A model generated the notes under the pieces. It saw nothing but the letters and a program-made list of their open reading frames with translations. It was not told where the DNA came from and did not search any database. Below are positions 23,988 to 29,958 of a stretch of DNA of 64,000 bases, one piece after another. This stretch comes from Candidatus Sulfotelmatobacter sp. (lineage in GTDB: Bacteria; Acidobacteriota; Terriglobia; Terriglobales; Acidobacteriaceae): assembly GCA_017883385.1 (NCBI GenBank), contig JADGNQ010000014.1, forward strand, positions 1-64,000, read 5' to 3'. Each line of letters starts with the position of its first letter. Position 1 is the stretch's first letter. A program made the position numbers and the translations under genes.

Positions 23988-24253
23988 ATTTTCGTGAGGT
24001 TTACGCGTGCACACACCCCCGGCCGCCCCGGGCCGGGTCCTCGCCAAGTGGAAAACGCGGGAAATTCTCAACCCATTTATGTATCAGGAAAGCGCGGGAA
24101 GAGCAAACTCCCACAAAGACTTATTGGAACCCTGGGAACGCCACGGAGTTGCCCGGTTTCCCAGCAGATCACAGTATACGAGAGCTTCGCTGGAGATGCC
24201 GAACATCAAAGAAGAAAGGGCCGAGGTCTGACGTCTTAGGTCTGAAGTCCGCC

Positions 24254-25666
24254 CTACGCTTCCTGCTCCGAGGGCACCGCCTCCGGCTGTTTCTTGATGC
24301 GTTGACCTCCCAAGATCAGCGGAAGCCGAATCTCCACGCGCAGGCCGCCCTCGGCGCGATTGAACGCAGCCACTCGCCCCCCATGGAAGCGGACAGCTCT
24401 CTCGGTAATGGCGAGGCCCAGGCCGACCCCTCCGGTAAGGCGTCCCCGGGCGTCATCCAGACGGTAGAACGGCTCGAAGAGCTTTCCCAGAGAATCTGGA
24501 GGAACACCCGGCCCGAAATCGCTGACCGTGAGCACGGCCTCCGGACCGCTGGCCCCTTCCTCACTCATCAGTACGATCTCGACCGACGTTCCTTCCTGGG
24601 TGTAGCGGATGGCATTGCGCACTACGTTCTCCACCGCACTGTGCAGCAGCGAATCGTTGCCCCGCACCCCCCAGTCGCCGTCGGGGATCACCGTGTGTAC
24701 GTGGCAGTGCCGCTCCTGCGCTTCAAACTCCGCATCCTCGGCGACGTTGGCCACCAACTCGCCCAGCGGCACCGGTGTCTGAGGCACGCGCTGTTCCCCG
24801 TCCTCCAGTCGCGCCAAGGTCAGAATCCTGCCGATCAGTTCGTTCAGGCGACTGGCCTCCAGTTCGATGCGATCCAGCATGTCGACGCTCTCCACGCCCG
24901 CCCGCTGCCGCGCCAGTCCCAATGCCACGTTCAAACGAGCCAGGGGTGAGCGAAGTTCATGCGAAATGTCATTCAGCAGACGCGACTGCGCCTTCACCAG
25001 CGTCTCCAGTCGCTCCGCCATCGCATCAAAATCGCGCATTAGGCTAGCGACCTCGTCCCGCCTCTTGGAGGCCGGAGCACCGGTGCGGGCCGTCAGATCG
25101 CCCGCCGCCAGCTTCTGAGTCGCGGCGCGCAACCGCACGATCGGCTTGGTCAAGAACCACGACAGGAAATAGCAGACCAACCCGGAGGAAAAAATGCCAA
25201 TGATCAGGCCCGGTATCGGCAGCCCGCGCGGACCAAAAAACACCCGCGGACCAGGTGGCAATCCCAACACGACGGTGTAGCGATGCTTGCCGTCTGCAGA
25301 AGCTCGCGAGTCGCGCTGCACCGGGGGCGCAGGGATGATGAATCCGTCGTGCGGGACGCGCGGTCCGCCTGCCGCCACACGGATCGCCCAGTCCGGTGCG
25401 GCACGATGCGAAACCTCCACTCCCTGCTCGTCAAACAGATAGGCGCGCACATGCTGCGTCGCTTCCAGGTTTTCCAAGTACTGCCGCAGTTGAGCTTCGC
25501 TGCCCTCTTCGTAAGCAGTCACCGCGTCGTTCAGGACCGTGGTGCGGAGACCTTCCCAGGTGGAGGAGCGCGGCCGGAACGCCACGGTGACCACGATGGC
25601 GAGCACCACGAACAGCGCCTGCGCCATCCAGAACGACAGAAAAATTCGGAGAAACAGGCTCTTCAT
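24254..25666 (-). CDS. CpxA/EnvZ-type sensor histidine kinase
   Basis: 470 residues. Membrane helix at about 8-30, periplasmic sensor of about 130 residues, second helix near 165-190, HAMP domain (KPIVRLRAATQKLAAGDLTAR), H-box NDISHELRSPLARL (His about 234), N-box NVVRNAIRYT, G1 DFGPGVP, and G2 GGVGLGLAI. Together with the regulator just upstream (25919-26623) and the Spy/CpxP-like gene divergent from that, it forms a Cpx-like envelope-stress module. In CpxA the periplasmic part is held inactive by CpxP; whether that holds here is inference. The two signalling genes are separated by about 250 bp of repeats. Confidence 0.93.
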   Translation of the reverse strand: MKSLFLRIFLSFWMAQALFVVLAIVVTVAFRPRSSTWEGLRTTVLNDAVTAYEEGSEAQLRQYLENLEATQHVRAYLFDEQGVEVSHRAAPDWAIRVAAGGPRVPHDGFIIPAPPVQRDSRASADGKHRYTVVLGLPPGPRVFFGPRGLPIPGLIIGIFSSGLVCYFLSWFLTKPIVRLRAATQKLAAGDLTARTGAPASKRRDEVASLMRDFDAMAERLETLVKAQSRLLNDISHELRSPLARLNVALGLARQRAGVESVDMLDRIELEASRLNELIGRILTLARLEDGEQRVPQTPVPLGELVANVAEDAEFEAQERHCHVHTVIPDGDWGVRGNDSLLHSAVENVVRNAIRYTQEGTSVEIVLMSEEGASGPEAVLTVSDFGPGVPPDSLGKLFEPFYRLDDARGRLTGGVGLGLAITERAVRFHGGRVAAFNRAEGGLRVEIRLPLILGGQRIKKQPEAVPSEQEA

Positions 25667-25685
25667 GCTGGACTCTTCAATCTCT

Positions 25686-25849
25686 GAAAAAACTCAAGAT
25701 TCGTATCAGGGCATCGCTTCAGCGACGCCGCACGTGCCCCAGGATATAGAATCCGCTTCACAGGTTGCGAAAAAACGCCCGATTCGTATCAGGCTATGCC
25801 TTCAGGCATAGCGTAAATGCTGGCGAATCAATCACGCCTTCAGGCGCTG
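25686..25849 (+). repeat. Dispersed repeats between kinase and regulator genes
   Basis: Two direct copies (25686-25730 and 25769-25813, period 83 bp) start GAAAAAAC, then five or so variable bases and GATTCGTATCAGG, followed by a palindromic core: GCATCGCTTCAGCGACGCCG in the first, CTATGCCTTCAGGCATAGCG in the second. A second module, CACGCCTTCAGGCGCTG, is at 25833-25849. The second copy plus module 2 matches the element inside the GT39 gene. Confidence 0.85.
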
Positions 25850-25918
25850 CCCACGCGGCATGCGACTTCTTCCGCAACCTCTTCAGCCGCTGCGGATGGA
25901 CTCCATCGCGCAAACACT

Positions 25919-26623
25919 CTAGACCTTAGCCTTCTCTCTCGGACGGGCAAAGATGTAGCCTACACCACGCACCGTCTTAATATGTTCGTCGCTGTCCGTG
26001 TCGCCTAATTTCTTGCGCACCTTGCTGACGTGCATATCAATGCTGCGGTCAAAGGGAGAGAATTTGCGGCTGAGCACGGCGTTCACCAGTCGCTCCCGCG
26101 GCACCACGCGGCCAGCCTCGCGCAAGAGAACCTCGAGCAAATTAAACTCGACAGAAGTCAGATCCACCGGCTTGCCATCGAGACGAACCGTGCGGGTCGC
26201 GGGATCGAGTTCCACTTCGCCGACTCGGACAATATCGGGCGCGGCAGGCAGCGCGCCATCCGCATGGGTGCGCCGCAGGACAGCCCGGATACGCGCCACC
26301 AGTTCCCGCGGATTAAACGGTTTGGGGAGATAGTCGTCGGCGCCGATCTCCAGGCCCACAATGCGGTCTACATCTTCTCCTCGTGCCGTCAGCAACAGGA
26401 CCGGCAGCCGCGAGGTAGCACGGATTCTGCGCAATACCTCAAATCCGTTGATGCCCGGCAACATTACATCGAGAACCGCGAGCAAGTACTCGCCAGTCGT
26501 AGCCTTTTTAAGGCCGCTCTCGCCATCGTGCACGCATTCGATGGTGAAACCCTCGGCCTGAAGATATTCTCCGACCAGGTGGCAGAGTTCCACGTCATCG
26601 TCAATCACTAAAATTCGTTCCAT
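25919..26623 (-). CDS. CpxR/OmpR-family response regulator
   Basis: 234 residues from the ATG at 26623 (MERILVIDDD); upstream in-frame ATGs at about 26632-26635 are possible. Receiver domain with acidic pocket (DDD at 8-10), phospho-acceptor Asp52 in VLDVMLPG, and the conserved Lys in LPKPF near 102. C-terminal winged helix (about 135-228) of the OmpR/PhoB class: RTVRLDGKPVDLTSVEFNLL, then the recognition helix in SIDMHVSKVRKKLGD, and RGVGYIF. It should bind the TTGAC/TTTAC half-sites at 26662-26676 and 26719-26754 next door and control both its own operon and the Spy/CpxP-like gene (inference). Confidence 0.94.
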   Translation of the reverse strand: MERILVIDDDVELCHLVGEYLQAEGFTIECVHDGESGLKKATTGEYLLAVLDVMLPGINGFEVLRRIRATSRLPVLLLTARGEDVDRIVGLEIGADDYLPKPFNPRELVARIRAVLRRTHADGALPAAPDIVRVGEVELDPATRTVRLDGKPVDLTSVEFNLLEVLLREAGRVVPRERLVNAVLSRKFSPFDRSIDMHVSKVRKKLGDTDSDEHIKTVRGVGYIFARPREKAKV

Positions 26624-26661
26624 CGCTGACATCATTGTGCACCCATGCAAAACGATTCGTA

Positions 26662-26676
26662 GTAAAGAATTGTCAA
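26662..26676 (-). promoter_or_regulatory. Putative CpxR-like box facing the regulator gene
   Basis: Read on the minus strand: TTGAC-N5-TTTAC (plus strand GTAAAGAATTGTCAA). It lies 39-53 bp upstream of the regulator's ATG, a position suited to autoregulation. It closely parallels the E. coli CpxR box GTAAA-N5-GTAAA. Confidence 0.6.
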
Positions 26677-26718
26677 ACCAGATACGGCAGGAACCGTGGT
26701 TGCCGGAATCGGATGCGT

Positions 26719-26754
26719 TTGACAAAACTTTACTCCGGTTGACCGACTCTTTAC
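26719..26754 (+). promoter_or_regulatory. Putative four-half-site operator for the Spy/CpxP-like gene
   Basis: Half-sites TTGAC (26719), TTTAC (26729), TTGAC (26739), TTTAC (26750) in direct orientation with 10, 10 and 11 bp steps, the helical period used by OmpR-family dimers. A possible -10, TATCAG, is at 26781-26786 with no good -35, consistent with an activator-dependent promoter. Confidence 0.6.
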
Positions 26755-26836
26755 CGCCTTTTCTCGTCCGTTCGTGTTCCTATCAGTGTAAGCAAAGTTC
26801 TCGGACCTCCGGGAAGAACCCTATTAGGAGTAATCG

Positions 26837-27346
26837 ATGAAATCGATTCGTTTTCGCGTCCTGATTGCTGCCTTGGCCGTGTTGCTCGGCACAGCCATCG
26901 CCAAGTCACAGACAGCTGCTGCTGATGCGCCTCCGCCTCCACCTATGCATGGCCACGGTCATGAATTCGGTATGGGCGGGCACATGATGGAGTTTTTCGC
27001 TGACTATCTGAACCTAAGCGACGCCCAGCAGACGCAGATGAAAGCCATCATGCAGAAAGAGCATGCGTCCCTGAAACCCTTGATGCAGCAAATGCGCCAG
27101 TCCGACCAGCAGCTTCACCAGTACGAGGAAGGCGCGTTCGACGAAGCCAAGGTTCGGACCATCGCCGCGCAGCAGGCCCAGACTCACGTGGAACTCACGG
27201 TCGCGCAGACGCGCATTCACAACGAACTGTTCCAGGTGCTGACGCCTGACCAACAGGCCAAGATGAAGGAGTTTGAGGCCAACCGTGAAGCCCGCATGCA
27301 GAAGCATATGCAGCAGGCGCCGCCCGCTCCTCCAGAGGAACAATAG
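26837..27346 (+). CDS. Spy/CpxP-family periplasmic protein (LTxxQ)
   Basis: 169 residues; AGGAG six bases before the ATG. Signal peptide MKSIRFRVLIAALAVLLGTA then IAKSQ. A His/Gly/Met-rich stretch (HGHGHEFGMGGHMM) follows, then two LTxxQ-like motifs, LSDAQQ near 60 and LTPDQQAKMKEF near 135, in an all-helical chain, as in CpxP, Spy and their relatives. In E. coli these proteins damp the Cpx response or act as periplasmic chaperones. The His-rich N-terminus may bind metal. Divergent from the CpxR-like regulator, exactly the cpxP-cpxRA arrangement of enterobacteria. Confidence 0.9.
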   Translation: MKSIRFRVLIAALAVLLGTAIAKSQTAAADAPPPPPMHGHGHEFGMGGHMMEFFADYLNLSDAQQTQMKAIMQKEHASLKPLMQQMRQSDQQLHQYEEGAFDEAKVRTIAAQQAQTHVELTVAQTRIHNELFQVLTPDQQAKMKEFEANREARMQKHMQQAPPAPPEEQ

Positions 27347-27359
27347 TCTTGAGGGGGTA

Positions 27360-27426
27360 GAACTCTCCTGAGGAGAGTTCGTTGTCCACGGCGCGAGGCT
27401 GAACTGATCTGTTCCCACCTCGCGCC
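27360..27426. other. Two hairpins after the Spy/CpxP-like gene
   Basis: GAACTCTCC-TGA-GGAGAGTTC (27360-27380, 9-bp stem) and GGCGCGAGG...CCTCGCGCC (27390-27398 with 27418-27426, 9-bp stem, 19-nt loop). Neither has a T run. They could act as transcript-end or attenuation structures before the next small gene. Confidence 0.5.
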
Positions 27427-27451
27427 GCGCTCAGAGAGGAAATCCACGCTG

Positions 27452-27634
27452 ATGAATGATTCGTATCTGTTCGACGCCGGATGGCTATTCTTCGCGGCAT
27501 GGAGCGTCGTCGTCGCCGCCGTCAGCGTGGAGGCCTTCCGGAGGGATTTCTTTCCCCGCGCGAGGCTTGAACTGGCGCAGCAGGAACAAGCCCGAGAATC
27601 GGCAACCCACCCCGCCGAACCTGATCTTAGCTAG
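27452..27634 (+). CDS. Small single-helix membrane protein
   Basis: 60 residues from an ATG; an AGAGG lies about 12 bases upstream, further than ideal. One hydrophobic helix (LFFAAWSVVVAAVSVEAF) follows a short N-terminus, then a basic/acidic tail. It is 105 bp after the Spy/CpxP-like gene on the same strand, so it could be part of the same stress regulon. No family recognised; a chance reading frame is not excluded. Confidence 0.4.
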   Translation: MNDSYLFDAGWLFFAAWSVVVAAVSVEAFRRDFFPRARLELAQQEQARESATHPAEPDLS

Positions 27635-28128
27635 CGGTGAGAAGGCAGCCGCAGGATCGCCTGCTGGCCTCCGTGTCCTCTGTGCCCTCCGTGGTTTAGC
27701 CGTTCTTCGTGACTAAGGATCTGGTATTTCCACAGCACACGCGCAGCTCGTGTGACATCCAACCTTGACCTCAACTGGAAGAGAGCAGATCATTGCCAAG
27801 GCGATAGCGGTATACTCCGAGCCTCCGAAGAAGGCCCTAAGCTATTTGTTATCAATATTTTGACCTGTAACCCATTGCGGCTCAAGATTTTGCAGACCAT
27901 TTTTGCAGACCCCGCGCCAGTCAAGCCTTTCAAGGGGTAGGGGGGAGGGGGGGGTACCAGCCCCAAGCCCAGTTTCCCCGAAAGGGACCTGCCTTGAATC
28001 TTGGCACCTGAGGCCGACTCGATGCCTTTTTTTCGGAAGATTTCCACAGCTTGAAGCAGAGATCAGACCGTGGCCGCGGAATCCGAAAGCTGCACCCAGC
28101 CTGCTAGAATTTCATCTACTGAATCTGC
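27635..28128. other. 494-bp intergenic region with repeats and a G-rich tract
   Basis: No credible gene. Contains a 'CTCCGTGTCCTCTGTGCCCT' type repeat (27666-27697), a direct repeat TTTTGCAGACC (27888-27898 and 27901-27911), and a run of guanines, GGGG-TA-GGGGGG-A-GGGGGGGG (27934-27954), that could fold as a G-quadruplex. The region leads into the ABC exporter gene. Confidence 0.6.
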
Positions 28129-29958
28129 ATGCTGCCCAAGAGTCTGGTCCCGCTGCTGCCGTACCTGAAACGCTACCGTTGGGGCTACGTCGCAGGCACT
28201 CTTTGCGTTTTCCTGACCAACGGCATCTGGATCCTCTTCCCGCTGGTGCTCGGCAAGGCCGCCGACGACCTGCATGAAGGCGTAACCCGCCATAAGCTGC
28301 TGCTCTATGCAGGACTGTTGCTCGCCATCGCCGTGAGCAAAGGGATTTTCCAGTTCCTCACCCGCTGGATCGTGATCGGAGTCTCGCGCGACATCGAGTT
28401 CGATCTGCGCAACGATCTTTTTGCGCGCCTGGAAGGCCTTTCCTACTCGTACTACCAGCGCCACCGCACCGGCGACATCATGGCGCGCGCCACTAACGAC
28501 CTGAACGCGGTCCGCATGCTGCTAGGCCCTGCCATCATGTACTCGGCCAATACCATCGTCTACACCGCTGGCGCGCTGGCCTTCATGATCTCCATCAGTC
28601 CCTGGTTAACGCTCTACACGTTCCTGCCGCTGCCTGCGGTGAGCATTGTGATCCAGTACTTCGGTCGGCAAATTCATGATCGCTTCGAAAGAATCCAGGC
28701 CATGTTCTCCGACATTTCCGCGCGGGCCCAGGAGAATTTTTCGGGCGCACGCCTGATTCGGGCCTACGTACAGGAAGAAGCGGAGATTCGGGCGTTCGAA
28801 ACCGAAAACAAAGAGTACATTCGCCGCAGCCTGAGACTGGTGCGGCTCATGGGCATGCTCTGGCCCACGTTGGAACTCATGCTGGGCGTTGCCGTGGTGC
28901 TCGTGCTGTGGCTCGGCGGGCGCGAGGTCATTCACGGGCTGACGCATGTCACTCTCGTTTCGAATCTAGGTATCTCAATTCCCGGAGTCTCGACTCCCGG
29001 GATCATGACCACTCTGTCGCTCTCCGGTTCCATGAGCGTCGGGCAATTCGTCTCCTTCAGCACCTACATGATGCAGCTCACTTGGCCGATCATCGCTCTG
29101 GGTTGGGTCATCAACATCTTTCAGCGCGGCACCGCGTCGTTGATCCGCATCAACGAAATCATGCAGGAGCAGCCGGAGATCAAAGATGCTCCGGGCGCGC
29201 AAGACCGGGAGATCGAAGGCGAGATCGAGTTCCGCAGGCTCAACTTCAGCTACGAAGGAAAGCCGGTTTTGCACGACGTAAACCTGCGCGTGCCTGCGGG
29301 CAGCAGCCTGGCGATTGTCGGTCCAACGGGCTCGGGCAAAACGACACTGGTCAGCCTGATTCCGCGCATCTACGACGCCGAGTCAGGAACTGTACTGATC
29401 GATGGCCAACCGATTCGCGAATTCTCGGTGGCATCCTTACGTCGAAACATCGGATTCGTGCCCCAGGAAACGTTTTTGTTTAGTGACCGTATCCGAGAGA
29501 ACATTGCCCTGGGAGTAAACTCGGCCACTGATCAGCAGATTCACGATGCCGCCGACGCGGCGAACATTGCGGTGGACATCGAGAGCTTTCCCGAAGGCTA
29601 CGACACCATGGTGGGAGAGCGCGGCATCACGCTCTCCGGCGGGCAGAAGCAGCGCGCCGCGATTGCTCGTGCGCTGATTCGCAATCCGAAGATTCTGATT
29701 CTGGACGACGCGCTCTCCAGCGTTGACACCCACACCGAAGACAAGATTCTCAACCATCTGCGCGACGTCATGCAGGGCCGCACGACCATCTTCATTTCTC
29801 ACCGCGTCTCGACCGTGCGCAATGCCGACCGCATCGCCGTTCTCCACGGTGGACGCATCGTCGAACTGGGCACCCACGACGAACTGCTGGCCTTGAACGG
29901 CTACTACAACGACCTGTATAACAAGCAACTGCTGGAAGAAGAGCTGGCCGAAGTCTGA
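28129..29958 (+). CDS. ABC exporter, fused membrane and ATPase domains (MsbA/multidrug type)
   Basis: 609 residues. N-terminal six-helix ABC-exporter membrane domain (about 1-320, with the RTGDIMARATNDLNAVRMLLG signature loop), then the ATPase: Walker A GPTGSGKTT about 398-406, Q-loop FVPQETFLF, signature LSGGQKQR about 501, Walker B ILILDDALSSVD about 522, H-loop ISHRVST. A half-transporter that works as a dimer. Substrate could be lipid or drug; nothing in the context decides. An extra 25 residues near 275-300 (VSNLGISIPGVSTPGI) make the periplasmic loop between helices 5 and 6 longer than usual. Confidence 0.93.
   Translation: MLPKSLVPLLPYLKRYRWGYVAGTLCVFLTNGIWILFPLVLGKAADDLHEGVTRHKLLLYAGLLLAIAVSKGIFQFLTRWIVIGVSRDIEFDLRNDLFARLEGLSYSYYQRHRTGDIMARATNDLNAVRMLLGPAIMYSANTIVYTAGALAFMISISPWLTLYTFLPLPAVSIVIQYFGRQIHDRFERIQAMFSDISARAQENFSGARLIRAYVQEEAEIRAFETENKEYIRRSLRLVRLMGMLWPTLELMLGVAVVLVLWLGGREVIHGLTHVTLVSNLGISIPGVSTPGIMTTLSLSGSMSVGQFVSFSTYMMQLTWPIIALGWVINIFQRGTASLIRINEIMQEQPEIKDAPGAQDREIEGEIEFRRLNFSYEGKPVLHDVNLRVPAGSSLAIVGPTGSGKTTLVSLIPRIYDAESGTVLIDGQPIREFSVASLRRNIGFVPQETFLFSDRIRENIALGVNSATDQQIHDAADAANIAVDIESFPEGYDTMVGERGITLSGGQKQRAAIARALIRNPKILILDDALSSVDTHTEDKILNHLRDVMQGRTTIFISHRVSTVRNADRIAVLHGGRIVELGTHDELLALNGYYNDLYNKQLLEEELAEV

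Follow-up and report, generated by a model that had tools for sequence, protein, structure and literature searches.

The window analyzed here (the whole 64,000-nucleotide stretch of a contig from Candidatus Sulfotelmatobacter sp., a soil bacterium only distantly related to Escherichia coli) carries a two-component gene pair, a gene for a Spy/CpxP-like periplasmic protein that diverges from it, and a series of short direct repeats in between. The features are as follows; near relatives are genomes of the genus Candidatus Sulfotelmatobacter and some sister genera, with a regulator identity of at least 75%.

24254–25666, minus strand: CpxA-like sensor histidine kinase, 470 aa, with HAMP, HisKA, and HATPase_c domains (best NCBIfam model CpxA)
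25919–26623, minus strand: CpxR-clade response regulator, 234 aa, with receiver and winged helix
26633–26643, minus strand: conserved GGTGCACAATG block, −10-like judging by its conservation, lying between the regulator gene and the site that faces it
26662–26676, minus strand: regulator-facing putative dimer site TTGACAATTCTTTAC (TTGAC-N5-TTTAC), an exact pair in 34 out of 43 near relatives
26719–26723, plus strand: half-site 1, TTGAC (sequence and near-relative alignment, as for the next three)
26729–26733, plus strand: half-site 2, TTTAC
26739–26743, plus strand: half-site 3, TTGAC
26750–26754, plus strand: half-site 4, TTTAC
26774–26790, plus strand: conserved GTGTTCCTATCAGTGTA block, a putative −10 region by conservation
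26837–27346, plus strand: 169-aa periplasmic protein of the LTXXQ family, Spy/CpxP-like

We chose 26623 as the regulator start; alternative ATG codons lie at 26632 and 26635. The kinase and regulator genes, both on the minus strand, are separated by 252 bp (25667–25918); in 20 out of 44 near loci they overlap by 4 bp instead. This gap is repeat-like, with ATTCGTATCAG present twice (25699 and 25782) and followed by short palindromic words. Together with its near-copies, the repeated sequence has five matches in the window, three of them near-copies outside the gap, compared with 0.63 expected. An Rfam search over 24000–28200 gave no match.

The original prediction, made from this DNA alone, had compared the kinase–regulator/divergent Spy order to cpxA-cpxR/cpxP, and a gene-order comparison with Escherichia coli K-12 (NC_000913.3) confirmed the same divergent kinase–regulator/chaperone layout. 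It had also described four plus-strand half-sites at steps of 10, 10, and 11 bp and an opposite-strand TTGAC-N5-TTTAC near the regulator gene; the former are exact at the positions given, and the latter is present on the minus strand at 26676–26662. The pattern TTKAC-N5-TTKAC occurs three times in the 64 kb, always at this locus, whereas 0.23 occurrences are expected and none of 100 shuffles reached three. The four-half-site array is not a product of chance. Scanning genomes with the motif, as had been proposed alongside the prediction, gave a divided answer. The two-site pattern was not enriched in the whole own genome (27 matches vs. 32 in a reversed control), so a lone pair means little, and we make no claim for the other single pairs in that genome. 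Three-site arrays were enriched, with a summed 127 matches in 43 out of 45 genus genomes versus five for the reversed control.

To follow the array beyond this genome, loci were collected by searching with the kinase, which gave matches at E 1e-50 in 72 out of 396 genomes of the phylum and at E 1e-70 in 54 out of 101 relatives, and further stretches were added. The prediction had staked its case on conservation of the half-sites and their 10–11 bp phasing in relatives that keep the gene order, and both proved conserved: at least three in-phase half-sites were found in 39 out of 42 near upstream regions and four in 28 out of 42 (counts that omit L065 and L088), against zero in shuffles. No Spy was found beside the regulator in the three near loci lacking the array (L030, L064, and L066). 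The array was alignable in 38 out of 43 near upstream regions, with L030, L064, L065, L066, and L083 excluded for low scores and L088 having no upstream DNA, and its consensus is tTGACAAAACTTTACTC.G.TTGAC.GaCTTTTTAC. The segment ACAAAACTTTAC (26722–26733) is invariant in all 38 aligned loci; over the preceding 25 bases, the commonest base accounts for only 29%–61%. Across the same loci the end of the array lies 74–115 bp from Spy and its start 74–265 bp from the regulator. The distance is thus kept to Spy and not to the regulator, suggesting that the array belongs to the Spy promoter. The GTGTTCCTATCAGTGTA block downstream would probably serve an activator-dependent promoter as its −10 region. 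On the other side, the conserved GGTGCACAATG block follows the exact regulator-facing pair in many of the 34 loci that have it.

Farther from the window the array thins out. Among 71 far loci (regulator <75% identical), 33 had an in-phase pair or more, 11 had at least three sites, and seven had at least four, and 38 had no array in the orientation of the Spy array; shuffled far loci had a pair in 0.17 cases on average, with a maximum of two. Half-site spacings in this set were 10–11, 20–22, and 30–32 bp, with any other distance from 5 to 40 bp seen at most once. Where far loci had a Spy-type neighbor, an array was missing from 13 out of 35; where they had none, it was present in 11 out of 35 (Fisher 0.016). 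These tables omit loci without Spy that have <500 bp upstream, and L058 was scored as lacking Spy though the beginning of a Spy gene is visible up to the point where its stretch ends. A strict tie between array and Spy was therefore rejected, given the 11 far loci that carry the array without Spy (for example, those of G121 and G073). In these two genomes (loci L032 and L033) a four-site array by the regulator faces what looks by eye like an efflux-adaptor-like protein, and the operator seems to have stayed put while its target changed.

A second search, with another regulator as query, found the array in 31 out of 32 fetched loci, which were the best matches to that one regulator and included eight genomes already in the earlier sets. 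Within the family of the window, nine out of 25 kinase-bearing genomes had a three-site array, compared with zero out of 19 that lack the kinase (Fisher 0.006). A three-site scan of the phylum matched 52 out of 396 genomes; since many genomes also matched the reversed control, we claim no matches outside the loci examined.

The regulator had been predicted to be CpxR-like and its operator to be a recognizable Cpx operator outside Proteobacteria, and both proposals gained support. With E. coli CpxR as the query, this regulator was the best match in its own genome (205.6 bits; next 138.2), and E. coli CpxA likewise picked out the kinase (184.6 bits; next 106.7). In a tree of 41 rows, E. coli CpxR grouped with 32 acidobacterial regulators, a sample of those collected (93/91, with several long branches), leaving outside the E. 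coli proteins OmpR, RstA, PhoB, BaeR, CreB, and ArcA and two own-genome paralogues. The recognition helix SPFDRSIDMHVSKVRKKL shares 12 out of 18 residues with TPFDRAIDMHISNLRRKL of CpxR, a closer likeness than it has to OmpR. When the E. coli cpxP promoter was scored with a matrix built from 152 Acidobacteriota half-sites, TTTAC-N5-TTTAC stood out (0 out of 200 shuffles). For a structure model of the kinase (mean pLDDT 68), the 15 best PDB matches were all CpxA cores. The sensor part had no Pfam match; residues 1–450 are covered by the CpxA model from Legionella, and only 154–451 by the one from E. coli.

NCBIfam cut-offs were not reached by the regulator (CpxR, 224.8 vs. 341, almost equaled by OmpR at 223.6, cut-off 331) or by the kinase (CpxA, 345.5 vs. 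800 in a match over the whole length, and 261.8 vs. 486), and we therefore speak of a circuit that works like Cpx with a regulator of the CpxR clade, and not of CpxR in the database sense. On the sequence evidence, the regulator is a member of that clade, and the circuit would work like Cpx, with a longer operator. The Spy/CpxP-like protein matched LTXXQ at 50.2 bits (cut-off 24.3), and its best NCBIfam models were Spy (72.6, cut-off 174) and CpxP (48.7, cut-off 160), both below cut-off. The two best fold matches of its structure model (pLDDT 77) were both CpxP, at modest E-values: 3qzc (E 0.003; TM by target 0.81) and 3itf (E 0.014; TM by target 0.79).

The likeness to known Cpx systems extends to the operator. 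E. coli CpxR has nearly the same recognition helix and uses head-to-tail half-sites 10 bp apart, as here, and the TTTAC-N5-TTTAC pair at E. coli cpxP has the same orientation as the acidobacterial array. Compared with the CpxR-type GTAAA-N5-GTAAA, the acidobacterial operator agrees, with TTTAC/TTGAC half-sites at 10–11 bp. There are also differences. At E. coli cpxP two half-sites are clear, whereas the acidobacterial locus has four, alternating TTGAC and TTTAC. The in-phase CTGAC and TTTGC that follow the E. coli pair add about 0 and 0.7 bits to the matrix score, and we dropped them as a sign of a shared four-site operator because they add almost nothing. The acidobacterial protein is nearer Spy than CpxP, and the region upstream of E. 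coli spy has no array, its matrix score being like that of its shuffles. In OmpR and PhoB operators, too, direct repeats recur at intervals of about one helical turn and are bound head to tail, but their half-site sequences are different.

Cpx systems occur throughout the alpha-, beta-, and gamma-Proteobacteria, and HT-SELEX gave GTCAA-type motifs for Pseudomonas aeruginosa CpxR (both from the available part of PMC12802237). As far as the available parts of PMC12802237 and PMC5063474 go, a CpxR box precedes muxA, of the MdtA/MuxA family that is also linked to arrays in Acidobacteriota, some promoters (muxA and yceJ) have two overlapping CpxR sites, and the P. aeruginosa CpxP is also closer to Spy than E. 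coli CpxP. In those parts, cpxP is flanked by cpxS and cpxR on opposite sides, unlike the acidobacterial locus, and a four-site array is not described for P. aeruginosa Cpx. In the open-access literature we found no description of a Cpx circuit in Acidobacteriota (CpxR/CpxAR; envelope stress, two-component, periplasmic chaperone), which, being limited to open access, is weak evidence; the main text of PMC8041468 does not name CpxR.

Further arrays pointed to candidate regulon members. In at least 24 out of 45 genus genomes, leuD and a gene for an MdtA-type RND adaptor are separated by a region with an array; this count covers array-bearing loci only, and the 24 loci were checked against one adaptor and one LeuD. 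The two adaptors scored gave 391.8 and 409.6 bits, both above the NCBIfam MdtA/MuxA cut-off of 391. These arrays point away from mdtA, opposite to the Spy array, and mostly lie 100–250 bp before its apparent start. In Pseudomonas, the CpxR box before muxA is conserved and CpxR reportedly acts regardless of site orientation (PMC5063474, available part). The own-genome mdtA match is interrupted by a contig end, and the own genome has only three supported array places: the regulator, Spy, and a second Spy-like gene. At the last of these (L241; G000:C2:101000-104500), TTTAC-N5-TTTAC adjoins the gene, whose product matches LTXXQ at 24.5 bits (cut-off 24.3). Three genomes (L212, L224, and L226) have an array beside the second Spy-like gene, itself a weak match, and in L224 a gene for an outer-membrane beta-barrel protein lies on the other side. 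Genome G210 has a regulator without an adjacent Spy, and its relocated Spy carries a four-site array of its own (L228). Neither the mdtA arrays nor the helix–operator covariation described below was part of the original prediction.

Arrays present in one or a few genus genomes (L239, L222, L215, and L232) precede other proteins with signal-peptide-like starts, the one at L239 being DUF2846-like, slightly below the Pfam cut-off; these are possible extra regulon members. In genome G406, the array before Spy (L171) adjoins a reading frame that starts like the regulator and then diverges, and a complete regulator lies on a separate contig (L065). The diverging frame is either an assembly error or a broken second copy.

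We found that the half-sites differ between regulators with different recognition helices. Where IDMH is followed three residues later by K, most regulators have arrays that mix TTGAC and TTTAC; where it is followed by N, most have TTTAC pairs; and IDVH regulators have TTTAC only wherever an array was found (10 loci). Four genomes have an IDTHVW helix (M to T and S to W), and their arrays are TTGAC except for one last TTTAC; one of the four, G658, came to light once the TTGAC prediction had already been made. There were exceptions, with TTGAC in the N-type L036 and L038 and only TTTAC in several K-type loci (for example, L035, L075, L305, and L311). The third base of the half-site thus appears to vary together with the recognition helix, and since the IDTHVW set may be a single clade, the covariation is suggestive and not proof.

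Taken together, we consider it likely that the locus encodes a Cpx-type two-component circuit in an acidobacterium, with a regulator that acts on direct repeats, activates the divergent Spy/CpxP-like gene, regulates its own gene, and in relatives also targets mdtA and a second Spy-like gene. OmpR-family regulators bind as phosphorylated dimers, head to tail, and direct repeats one turn apart are common among them. In the proposed mechanism, the CpxA-related membrane kinase would phosphorylate the CpxR-clade regulator, which would bind as head-to-tail dimers to direct repeats spaced by one helical turn (TTGAC/TTTAC, or GTCAA/GTAAA as read on the opposite strand). The four in-phase half-sites would form two adjacent dimer sites on one face of the helix and activate the Spy/CpxP-like gene, and the single dimer site before the regulator gene would provide autoregulation. 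In relatives, the further arrays would place MdtA-type efflux and the second Spy-like gene under the same control. The circuit would presumably respond to an envelope-stress signal, with feedback by Spy/CpxP.

Such repeats being common in this family, the array might instead be the operator of another OmpR/PhoB-family regulator that lies beside this pair by coincidence; E. coli CpxR finds at least 12 further matches in the own genome with E-values of 1e-20 or better, and the OmpR and CpxR models score alike on the regulator. We regard this as very improbable, for the same half-sites stand in the regulator's own promoter (34 out of 43), none of the 19 family genomes without the kinase has a three-site array, the third base changes along with this regulator's helix, and that helix is nearer CpxR than OmpR. 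We give hardly any credence to the idea that the TTGAC boxes represent −35 promoter elements that overlap, and not regulator sites. The sigma-70 −35 consensus is TTGACA, and the array does begin with TTGACAAAAC. The third base, however, is not fixed as G (89 T, 62 G, and 1 A in 152 half-sites), TTTAC being as frequent, and the repeats hold their 10/10/11 phase. The TAT of the GTGTTCCTATCAGTGTA block, the sole conserved TAT block, starts 31 bp past the start of half-site 4 here and 30 bp past it in most loci, too distant for half-sites 1–3 to serve as its −35 box. For these reasons we rejected TTGAC as a −35 box.

The remaining alternative concerns not the wiring but the signal: the circuit may be built as described but use a ZraP/CnrX-like protein to sense metals, and not the misfolding of envelope proteins. 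The Spy/CpxP-like protein has a histidine-rich stretch and a Metal_resist match of 38.6 bits (cut-off 29.2), and its fold matches also include CnrX and ZraP. We think metal sensing unlikely, given that Spy and CpxP are the best sequence models, CpxP provides the best folds, the kinase core is nearest CpxA, and the further candidate target is an MdtA-type drug efflux system.

The locus would extend a well-studied envelope-stress circuit to Acidobacteriota, a phylum for which we found no description in the open-access literature. We tentatively put forward a broader reading, to which we would give somewhat less than an even chance: a Cpx regulon core (regulator, Spy/CpxP, and MdtA-type efflux) and its half-site may be common to Acidobacteriota and Proteobacteria, with a phased operator of four half-sites having become fixed in this family of Acidobacteriota and the operator code having been rewritten along with the helix within the phylum (IDVH with TTTAC, IDMH with TTTAC or mixed arrays, and IDTHVW with TTGAC arrays). 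With its four repeats kept in relatives, the operator makes the targets of this switch predictable and would let regulon members be predicted from sequence alone. The natural series of helices and operators may also offer a direct route to how the winged helices of OmpR-family regulators choose their bases.
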